64,000 bases of DNA, taken from assembly GCF_009742705.1 (NCBI RefSeq), contig NZ_WPCU01000010.1:50164-114163 (forward strand). The letters are read 5' to 3'. This DNA comes from Auraticoccus cholistanensis. GTDB taxonomy: Bacteria > Actinomycetota > Actinomycetes > Propionibacteriales > Propionibacteriaceae. Below the pieces are notes generated by a model that searched no databases, was not told where the DNA came from, and saw only the letters and a list, made by a program, of their open reading frames with translations. This document shows positions 52,189-54,213 of this stretch, one piece after another. The first letter of the stretch is position 1. Every line of letters starts with the position of its first letter. Position numbers and translations under genes: made by a program.

Positions 52189-53196
52189 TCAGGCCGCGTC
52201 GAGGGTGAGGCTGGGACGTCCCTCGGCCCAGTGCGCCAGCAGCTCCTCGGAGAACCGGTCGCCGACGTAGCTGCCCGCCTGCAGGCCGAGCACGACGCCG
52301 GCGGCGAGCTCGGGCTCCAGCGCGAGCAGCGGGCGGAGGACGTCGCGTCGCAGCACCTGCTCGTGGACCGCGTCGGCCTCGACGTGCTCGGCGTAGAACC
52401 GCTCGGTGGCCGGGCCCAGCTCCAGCCGGCGGGCGGCGCGCACCAGCCGGGCGGACCCCGGCGAGGAGGTCAGCTCCACCAGGGCGAACAGCCCCACCGA
52501 GGCCCCGCGCAGGCTCCGGCGCAGCCCGCACAGCGTCTGCAGGTTGACCTCGGCGAGCACCCAGCGGCTGGTGCGGTCCAGGTAGGCGCCGTAGGTGGGG
52601 TCGAGGCCGAGCTCGGTCATCATGTCGGCGAAGAGCGTGGAGTGCATGGCGGCGGCGCGTCCGGCGCCGTACTCGTCGTGCTGCACCGTGACCAGCCCGG
52701 CCTTGGCCGCCCCCTGCAGCCGGGGCACGACCCACGACTGCGGGTCGGCCTCCTTGCGGTGGTAGTGGGCGCGGTGGGCGACGTACTCGGCGAACTGCGC
52801 GGCGGTGCCCTCGCCGGCGAGGTGGTAGCTGATGCCGGTGCCGTCGGCCGGCTCGACCAGCAGGTCGGCGACCACGTCGTCGAGGTCGTCCCCGCCGGGG
52901 AGCTCGGCGCGCAGCGCGGCGAGGTAGTGGTCGGCCATCGCGTGCCGGGCGGCGACCACGGCCGGGGCCCACTCCAGGTCGTCGTCGACGCCCTCGAAGC
53001 CGCGGTAGTGCAGCTCCGAGGTCAGCGCCAGGGCGAGCTGCAGGTCGTGCCCGAAGGGGTCGGAGGGCGTCACCTCGGGGAAGGAGCCGGTGCCGCCGCG
53101 GAGCAGGTCGCAGACGGCCGCCGACAGCTCGCCGCGCGGGGCCGGCAACCTCGGGCGGTCGAGGCGCTCGGCGGCGGGCGGCAGGGTCGTGGTCAC
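52189..53196 (-). CDS. Haem-oxygenase-like iron-containing redox enzyme family protein
   Basis: This is a 335-residue, largely helical protein of the iron-containing redox (haem-oxygenase-like diiron oxygenase/oxidase) group. Candidate metal ligands lie in ELHYRGFEGVDDDLEW, HRAHYHRKEADPQSWV, TVQHDEYGAGRAA and YAEHVEADAVHEQ, matching the Glu/His pattern of HDO proteins. No signal or membrane segment is present. GTG 53196 has GGAAGGAG 5 nt upstream and overlaps the CDGSH stop (GTGA). It is the last gene of a three-gene chain with a CDGSH protein and an NPPY methyltransferase. The reaction is unknown. Confidence 0.85.
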   Translation of the reverse strand: MTTTLPPAAERLDRPRLPAPRGELSAAVCDLLRGGTGSFPEVTPSDPFGHDLQLALALTSELHYRGFEGVDDDLEWAPAVVAARHAMADHYLAALRAELPGGDDLDDVVADLLVEPADGTGISYHLAGEGTAAQFAEYVAHRAHYHRKEADPQSWVVPRLQGAAKAGLVTVQHDEYGAGRAAAMHSTLFADMMTELGLDPTYGAYLDRTSRWVLAEVNLQTLCGLRRSLRGASVGLFALVELTSSPGSARLVRAARRLELGPATERFYAEHVEADAVHEQVLRRDVLRPLLALEPELAAGVVLGLQAGSYVGDRFSEELLAHWAEGRPSLTLDAA

Positions 53197-53426
53197 GGGT
53201 TCTCCTTCCGTCGGCGGCGGCGGCCGCGGTGGCTGGTGTCGCAGAGCGGGTAGATGCTGCTGCGCCGGCAGGTGCACACGGCGACCACCGGACGGTCGGC
53301 GAGCACGCTGCTGCCGTCGGGCAGGTCGATCTCGACCGGGCCCTCGACCAGCACGGGCCCGTCGTCGGCCACCACCACCCGGCGTCGTCCGGGGTCCTCC
53401 GCTGGCACCGTTCCTCCTCCGCTCAC
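53193..53426 (-). CDS. CDGSH iron-sulfur domain protein
   Basis: This is a 77-residue protein with the complete [2Fe-2S] CDGSH signature: Cys51, Cys53, Cys62 and His66 in CTCRRSSIYPLCDTSH. The N-terminal half forms the beta-strands of the domain (VEIDLPDGSSVLADRP). A polybasic tail (RGRRRRRK) could bind nucleic acid or a partner. GTG 53426 overlaps the methyltransferase stop, and its own stop overlaps the diiron gene start, so all three are translationally coupled. The cluster could donate electrons or iron-sulfur units to the diiron protein; this is inference. Confidence 0.92.
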   Translation of the reverse strand: MSGGGTVPAEDPGRRRVVVADDGPVLVEGPVEIDLPDGSSVLADRPVVAVCTCRRSSIYPLCDTSHRGRRRRRKENP

Positions 53427-54121
53427 CGCCGTCGACCCTCCACGACCACCAGTGTCTCCTGCTGCTCCTCAGGCGTCAGCAGCCCCTGCTCCCGCAGCCA
53501 CTGCCGGCGCTGGGTCATCACGGGTCCGAAGGGGACGACCTGCTCCTGCACCACCTCGGCGTCCAGGCCCTGCTCCGCCAGCTGCTGCAGGGTCTCGCGC
53601 ACCCCGGTCACGGTCGACTGCACCAGCACCACCCGCCCCTCGGGCGAGAGCACCTCCCCCACGCCGGCGCAGAACCGGTCCAGCACCATCCGGCCCGTCG
53701 GTCCGCCGTCCCAGCACCGGGCCGTGCGGTGCCGGGGCAGCACGTCGTTCGGGGAGGGGACGTAGGGCGGGTTGCAGACGACCAGGTCGAACTGCGAGCC
53801 GGCGACCGGGGCGAACAGGTTGCCGCGGCGGACGCGGACGGGGGCCCCGCACAGCGCCGCGTTGAGGCGGGCGCTGAGCACCGACCGGAGGGCGAGGTCG
53901 ACCGCCACCACCGAGCGGGCGCCGGCGTGGGCGGCGACCAGGGCCAGGAAGCCGGTCCCGGTGCACACGTCCAGCACGCGTCGTCCGGCGGCCGCCCCCC
54001 GCACGTGGGTGGCGAGCAGCCGGGAGTCGTGCTGGACCCGGTACGTCCCGGGCAGCGCGACCGGCGGCTCGGACCGCCGTCCGCGGGGGGTGAACCAGGC
54101 GTGGGCCTGCGTCTGCGCCAT
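53423..54121 (-). CDS. HemK/Mtq2-like SAM-dependent methyltransferase (NPPY type)
   Basis: This is a 232-residue class I methyltransferase. SAM motif I is RVLDVCTGTGFLALVAA (48-64). The acidic VVAVDLALRS ends beta2. NPPY at 117-120 (VVCNPPYVPSPND) is the motif of enzymes methylating planar nitrogen such as glutamine in release factors or adenine. It lacks the HemK N-terminal helical domain, like Mtq2. It is not next to prfA, so a different protein target is likely. ATG 54121 starts the CDGSH/diiron operon. A 92-bp gap separates it from the LmeA-like gene. Confidence 0.87.
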   Translation of the reverse strand: MAQTQAHAWFTPRGRRSEPPVALPGTYRVQHDSRLLATHVRGAAAGRRVLDVCTGTGFLALVAAHAGARSVVAVDLALRSVLSARLNAALCGAPVRVRRGNLFAPVAGSQFDLVVCNPPYVPSPNDVLPRHRTARCWDGGPTGRMVLDRFCAGVGEVLSPEGRVVLVQSTVTGVRETLQQLAEQGLDAEVVQEQVVPFGPVMTQRRQWLREQGLLTPEEQQETLVVVEGRRR

Positions 54122-54213
54122 GGGCCTCCTCGGTGCCGGGGCCCTGGAGCGAGCCGTTGCTCCCCCGGTATCCCGTCGCGCCGGCGACCAAACCGCGGCC
54201 CGGGCCGCGGGCG

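Follow-up and report, generated by a model that had tools for sequence, protein, structure and literature searches.

Actinobacterial haem-oxygenase-like diiron proteins are paired with small CDGSH proteins and often accompanied by a methyltransferase: a candidate N-oxygenase system

Haem-oxygenase-like diiron proteins (HDOs) form a fast-growing superfamily in which, according to the accessible text of PMC13108848, only about a dozen members have a validated function. Except for FlcD, the characterised HDOs are described as needing auxiliary reductants for multiple turnovers (accessible part of PMC11363339), and the available sections of PMC13185094 describe a dedicated redox partner for one of them. 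This is MboA of the mangotoxin pathway, which forms with MboB what may be the first HDO with a dedicated redox partner to be characterised; MboB, the Fe2S2 partner encoded in the operon of MboA, is presented there as a flavin and Fe2S2 reductase using NAD(P)H. In the streptozotocin pathway, SznF has as its partner the arginine methyltransferase SznE, which makes the substrate of SznF by guanidine N-methylation (PMC11705231, as excerpted). HrmI and RohS are N-oxygenases of lysine and 2-aminoimidazole, respectively; RohS assays use PMS and NADH (PMC10724926), and the accessible text mentions no CDGSH partner for either enzyme. DtpC of Acinetobacter baumannii is an HDO tied, by its description, to stress survival; it is co-transcribed with the catalase gene katE, and the available portion of PMC13232832 mentions neither a CDGSH protein nor a methyltransferase with it.

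The locus described here shares features with several of these systems. Three genes, here called MT, CDGSH and HDO in the order of transcription, occupy positions 54121-52189 on the minus strand of the window, that is, of the whole 64,000-nucleotide stretch that was analysed (Table 1). They are linked by two GTGA overlaps, in which the GTG start of CDGSH lies over the MT stop (53423-53426) and that of HDO over the CDGSH stop (53193-53196). An earlier note on this DNA had called the operon fully overlapping; the overlaps are real and lie where it had placed them, although they are just ordinary 4-base start/stop overlaps. Its residue numbers for the methyltransferase NPPY motif and for the four CDGSH ligands are correct, and its three family assignments each score above the curated Pfam or NCBIfam cut-off. 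The genome of the window holds one PF14518 and one PF09360 match, which are the HDO and CDGSH of this set. A family scan of three flanking genes returned an LmeA-like lipid-binding protein, RNase J and an M16 peptidase, which gave no hint of a substrate and include no stress gene. Desertihabitans aurantiacus, the closest named relative among the matches listed (74% identity), has kept the set together with homologues of these three genes.

Table 1. Features of the gene set, in window coordinates.
Feature	Position	Strand	Description
MT	53423..54121	-	232 aa, ATG start; class I SAM methyltransferase, HemK2/MTQ2-like (TIGR00537), NPPY at residues 117-120
CDGSH	53193..53426	-	77 aa, GTG start; small NEET-type protein, [2Fe-2S] ligand motif C51 C53 C62 H66
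HDO	52189..53196	-	335 aa, GTG start; predicted haem-oxygenase-like diiron protein, ligands E149 E175 H185 E241 H271 D275 H278
Possible stress-sigma (SigB/SigF-like) promoter	54168..54194	-	GGTTT-N15-GGGATAC, 5' of MT; weak, inexact fit to the -10 consensus

HDO matched PF14518 (Haem_oxygenas_2) with 168.9 bits (cut-off 28.9) and no other Pfam family. The four Glu/His clusters that had been pointed out as candidate metal ligands proved to contain a complete SznF-type diiron set. Aligned to SznF by phmmer, HDO runs gapless over the metal site at an offset of 40, so that all seven ligands share identical spacing (E149/E189, E175/E215, H185/H225, E241/E281, H271/H311, D275/D315 and H278/H318); E189 is, as we take it, the seventh, extra glutamate ligand of SznF. 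Alanine at any one of the other six SznF positions abolishes activity, according to the available excerpts of PMC11705231. The family motif E-H-E-H-(D/E)-H, to which SznF adds a seventh E (PMC11363339, accessible part), is formed in HDO by E175 H185 E241 H271 D275 H278, and E149 provides the additional glutamate of the SznF-like 3H/4C subtype in 91 of 91 rows. The remaining six are likewise identical throughout these 91 aligned HDO rows (window's own row included), so the loss of diiron ligands that had been considered as a possible argument against a single system was not seen. HDO would accordingly be expected to bind two metals.

The AlphaFold2 model of HDO (pLDDT 94.2, pTM 0.92) has a haem-oxygenase-like helical fold. 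Its best matches among PDB structures (VIA-align Z) were HrmI (32.2), SznF (29.4) and RohS (28.3), followed by FlcD (24.9), CADD (19.6), BesC and UndA (both 16.4); in the structural alignment, HrmI and RohS (Z 28-32) share 16-18% identity with HDO. Unlike SznF, HDO has no C-terminal cupin domain: its 335 aa match one Pfam family, and the model contains helices and no strands. That three N-oxygenases top the predicted fold matches suggests, short of proof, that HDO is an N-oxygenase as well. The 3H/4C ligand set does not by itself prove N-oxygenation, since the best structural match, HrmI, is described as 3H/3C (PMC13108848, accessible text). The ligand set and the predicted fold nevertheless narrow the diverse N- and C-oxidations named in the earlier note towards N-oxygenation, and we lean slightly towards assigning HDO this activity.

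CDGSH/NEET proteins carry the cluster motif C-X-C-X2-(S/T)-X3-P-X-C-D-X-X-H, and for most small bacterial members we know of no assigned job. The CDGSH protein of the window matched PF09360 (zf-CDGSH) with 56.5 bits (cut-off 29.5) and no further Pfam family. The CxCx8CxxxH motif, with C, C, P, C, D and H all kept, is present in 74 of 74 linked CDGSH rows (own row included), which were retrieved with a profile that itself contains the motif. CDGSH would be expected to hold a redox-active [2Fe-2S] cluster.

The association of the two families extends far beyond the window. Among 197 sampled genomes of the class, the HDO query matched 113, of which 95 strongly (E 1.5e-44 or better), while the 18 genomes with weak matches only were counted as being without this HDO; PF09360 was found in 115. 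A CDGSH gene is present in 82 of 95 genomes with HDO versus 33 of 102 without it (Fisher p 4e-15 from genome lists put together by hand; the value is optimistic because the genomes are related). In 71 of 90 loci CDGSH is no more than 1.5 kb from HDO, and in 52 the distance is at most 300 bases; 16 loci contain no CDGSH gene. One of these 16 ends at a contig edge (L023), and the genomes of two others carry CDGSH elsewhere, at a distance of about 8 kb (L035) or on another contig (L105). Genes in the loci were called by codon scoring, with some still missed. CDGSH was detected in 35 of 40 HDO neighbourhoods versus 0 of 40 control windows; the controls were 13-kb windows at hand-picked, round-number positions on the contigs of the same 40 HDO loci, and the CDGSH and MT-like profiles used in this comparison had been trained on HDO neighbours. 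In the closest named loci, the best 80 of 594 confirmed and mostly from Streptomyces, CDGSH lay within 2.5 kb of HDO in 77 cases and MT in 75.

A quick tree was built from 91 HDOs, with weak support on 30 of 88 inner branches. In these 91 rows the CDGSH gene is downstream on the same strand in 34 cases, convergent in 27, upstream in 10, divergent in 4 and absent in 16. This distribution requires at least 14 changes of arrangement when losses of CDGSH are included, and at least 10 among the 75 rows that have CDGSH. Since the neighbour was retained through at least 10 changes of order, selection probably holds the HDO-CDGSH pair together. Thirteen of the 16 HDOs without CDGSH form one clade (SH-aLRT 100) with all ligands intact; together with the 13 of 95 HDO genomes that have no CDGSH gene, this indicates that CDGSH is dispensable for the chemistry.

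The co-occurrence across actinobacteria that the earlier note had looked to is therefore found, and the homologues are not usually dispersed, linkage being kept across loci and rearrangements. The gene set is almost certainly one functional unit, as had been claimed for the three genes together. The claim needs amending in one respect: the evolutionarily stable core is HDO plus CDGSH, while the methyltransferase is a frequent, exchangeable companion that is replaced or missing in many distant relatives.

What CDGSH contributes to this core can be considered against the MboA/MboB pair. The small [2Fe-2S]-motif protein encoded next to most HDOs of this large family is the simplest candidate for an MboB-like job. 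In both systems an iron-sulfur protein is encoded together with the HDO; MboB is a reductase, and the present candidate partner is a CDGSH protein of 77 aa. A role as redox partner of HDO is plausible and fits the strong linkage, and we consider that CDGSH is probably the reductant or activator of HDO. Alternatively, CDGSH proteins can transfer clusters, and CDGSH might hand iron or a cluster to a labile HDO diiron site, in delivery or repair, instead of supplying electrons for turnover. The linkage data fit this equally well, the conserved motif suits either role, and a clade living without CDGSH suits an assembly aid. HDO diiron sites are moreover often labile through a flexible helix 3, according to the accessible text of PMC13108848. 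On the other hand, assays of MboA and RohS just add ferrous salt (PMC13185094 and PMC10724926, available sections), which suggests that no chaperone is needed there, and we regard delivery or repair as unlikely.

Many copies of the set lie among stress genes. Sigma-B/F-type genes occur near HDO in 12 of 40 neighbourhoods versus 1 of 40 controls, a difference that is significant after correction for the 14 markers compared; GAF-ANTAR genes (7/40 versus 0/40) and gas-vesicle markers (5/40 versus 0/40) are also commoner near HDO. Six of the 14 markers (sigma-B/F, GAF-ANTAR, SRPBCC, two gas-vesicle markers and a LuxR regulator) gave p values under 0.05, which are optimistic because the markers were chosen for recurring near HDOs, and the other eight (a third gas-vesicle marker, SpoIIE, CBS, SDR, LLM, zinc alcohol dehydrogenase and two more) showed no significant excess near HDO. 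According to annotation, SpoIIE, STAS and CsbD genes lie near the set on a Kitasatospora plasmid (L192) and a gas-vesicle cluster on a Streptomyces plasmid; on a Curtobacterium plasmid only HDO and CDGSH are present, and neither an MT nor a stress gene is annotated within 5 kb on either side. In two loci that are probably mycobacterial (L108 and L109), genes judged by eye to be manganese-catalase-like and hemerythrin-like lie a few genes from HDO and resemble, again by eye, the SigF-dependent block MSMEG_6210-6213 of M. smegmatis. The SigF table of that species lists MSMEG_6210-6213; MSMEG_6205-6209 are not among its genes.

The stress-sigma promoter consensus is GTTT-N14-19-GGGTA (PMC4694148). 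The possible promoter upstream of MT in the window has a counterpart in a Desertihabitans relative (L112), where GGTTT-N15-CGGATAC lies 5' of MT and departs from a strict GTT-N-GGG pattern. Across loci, GTTT-N13-18-GGGTA stands before 11 of the 139 genes that lead the set; the expectation from shuffles is about 0.1, and the pattern is present in 3 of the reverse complements. Compared with leading control genes in the same loci (18 of 447), the excess gives p 0.057, so that against neighbouring genes the signal is borderline and suggestive. A stress role of the HDO set would be in keeping with the gene neighbourhoods, and the HDO product is perhaps tied to general stress; the borderline promoter signal and the absence of MSMEG_6205-6209 from the SigF table speak against claiming this firmly.

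The same neighbourhoods could be read differently, with HDO and CDGSH scavenging oxygen or peroxide in a general stress response, in the manner of DtpC, and MT marking or repairing a protein. In dried A. baumannii cells DtpC limits hydrogen peroxide and requires its ligand residues (PMC13232832, available portion), and the 3H/4C enzyme SznF forms a peroxo intermediate without substrate (PMC13108848, accessible text). The enrichment of sigma, GAF-ANTAR and gas-vesicle genes and the catalase- and hemerythrin-like neighbours in L108 and L109 would also suit scavenging. However, the repeated association with methyl- and glycosyltransferases, detailed below, points to the making of something, and the three scanned flanking genes of the window are not stress genes. 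Scavenging seems improbable to us.

MT scored 61 bits with the MTS family (cut-off 23) and 119.6 bits with TIGR00537 (cut-off 87). Its AlphaFold2 model (pLDDT 93.0) is closest in the PDB to human N6AMT1/HEMK2 in the N6AMT1-TRMT112 structure (TM-score about 0.73 by query and 0.86 by target). MT is predicted to adopt the class I SAM fold of HemK2/MTQ2 enzymes, and its close group keeps NPPY in 25 of 25 rows. The match is to a eukaryotic protein that works with an activator subunit and shares about 22% identity with MT; further fold neighbours are small-molecule N-methyltransferases, namely a gentamicin enzyme and the carbamoyl N-methyltransferase Asc-Orf2. MT-like genes, of several kinds, occur in 23 of 40 HDO windows versus 0 of 40 controls, and within 3.5 kb of HDO in 46 of 80 loci, MT being missing or replaced in many. 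In the clade without CDGSH, 10 of 13 HDOs adjoin a different methyltransferase-like gene, which gives a weak score against the MT profile and in two loci (L037 and L090) encodes GNPPY; elsewhere the methyltransferase near HDO is of a DPPW type or a Methyltransf_25 protein. A GT2-like glycosyltransferase is found in 14 of 191 loci, all within L032-L111, and in none of the 40 controls.

Because of these fold neighbours, and because the substrate of SznF is itself made by a methyltransferase, we propose that one small molecule is both N-methylated and N-oxygenated. The resemblance to SznF/SznE, an HDO paired with an N-methyltransferase, goes with two differences, a HemK2-like MT and the additional CDGSH protein, and that MT acts on the same small molecule as HDO is a tentative assignment, close to evenly balanced. 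A genuine HemK2-type protein glutamine methyltransferase with a ribosomal or release-factor-like target, tied to HDO and CDGSH by regulation only, would explain the TIGR00537 score, the N6AMT1-TRMT112 fold and the conserved NPPY, yet to our knowledge the HemK2 substrate eRF1 is absent from bacteria and the unlike methyltransferases beside HDO in other lineages would be unexpected if the target were a protein unrelated to HDO, so we consider it very unlikely.

The operon would then encode a two-component diiron N-oxygenase and an accessory N-methyltransferase. HDO would bind two irons, reduce O2 to a peroxo-diiron species and oxygenate a nitrogen atom of a small molecule; the [2Fe-2S] cluster of CDGSH would make the diiron site ferrous again from one turnover to the next, drawing electrons from a reduced flavin or a thiol system; and MT would methylate a planar nitrogen (in an amide, carbamoyl or guanidine group) of the compound on which HDO acts, in the way that SznE acts ahead of SznF. 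We infer the electron transfer from CDGSH to HDO, the N-oxygenation and the shared substrate. Because many copies of the set lie among stress genes, the product would probably serve stress survival and not antibiosis. This reading in its entirety, a two-component N-oxygenase supplied with electrons by CDGSH and acting on a small nitrogen compound methylated by MT, is offered tentatively, as somewhat less than an even chance.

Several neighbouring genes were considered as further members or as clues to substrate and electron source. A flavin reductase gene lies near the set on the Kitasatospora plasmid; its homologues number just 4 among the 191 other loci (E 1e-3), with none in the 40 controls, and it was rejected as a general electron source. 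A dimethylargininase gene beside the set on the same plasmid had suggested arginine or methylarginine chemistry but is only a hint, because it has no homologue in the 191 other loci. YbdK-type carboxylate-amine ligases, found in 10 of 191 loci, were too few to be counted as members.

Each part of the set belongs to a known family; new as far as searched are the pairing, its breadth and the likely redox role. A literature search, mostly outside subscription journals, found among the matches listed no treatment of CDGSH together with HDO. The strong pairing across actinobacteria gives each family a testable partner, and since roughly every second genome sampled from the class has HDO (95 of 197), its product would be a common, overlooked metabolite or modification. 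A broader generalisation, which we regard as possible and rather doubtful, is that a large unrecognised class of actinobacterial two-component diiron N-oxygenases has CDGSH proteins as its dedicated electron donors and makes a stress metabolite that is N-oxidised, in many cases N-methylated and at times also glycosylated.

Some of the loci contain unusually long reading frames. In a metagenome-assembled genome (MAG; L123), CDGSH and HDO form one unbroken frame, which counts in favour of the two-component reading, and in another Pseudonocardiales MAG (L145) they are the usual two; an apparent HDO-CDGSH fusion in L080 was rejected, as CDGSH is there split over two frames, which we read as a frameshift. 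In L051 the HDO frame runs on into a GT2-like domain, and L047 has a similarly long HDO frame, of which the linker portion was inspected.

In a Pseudonocardiales metagenome-assembled genome (locus L123), the CDGSH protein and the haem-oxygenase-like diiron protein (HDO) share one unbroken reading frame, which may be a true fusion or may have arisen artefactually, from a base error in this assembly. At locus L051, a proline-rich linker joins HDO in frame to a GT2-like glycosyltransferase, and the HDO frame of L047 probably extends via a linker in the same way; in relatives, the glycosyltransferase is encoded by its own gene, close to HDO and CDGSH.

A clade of HDO proteins without CDGSH has a different methyltransferase-like neighbour (L037, L042, L045, L053, L054, L057, L065, L087, L090 and L091). 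At L090 this neighbour contains GNPPY, and it matched no Pfam family at E 1e-3.

Gas-vesicle (gvp) genes lie close to the HDO set at loci spanning several families (L034, L043, L045-L047, L051, L058, L080, L103 and L194). Manganese-catalase-like, hemerythrin-like and LLM-type genes, assigned by eye, are found a few genes away from it at L108 and L109, whose genomes look mycobacterial. The candidate promoter element upstream of the methyltransferase gene is common to the window and the Desertihabitans relative (L112).

Coordinates of the reading frame, neighbouring genes and candidate promoter element
Feature	Location	Strand	Context
CDGSH-HDO reading frame	L123:9719-10990	+	Pseudonocardiales
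Carboxylate-amine ligase and dimethylargininase genes	L192:2887-4921		Immediately upstream of HDO, Kitasatospora sp. NBC_00039
GGTTT-N15-(G/C)GGATAC	window 54168-54194	-	Upstream of the methyltransferase gene, as in Desertihabitans (L112)
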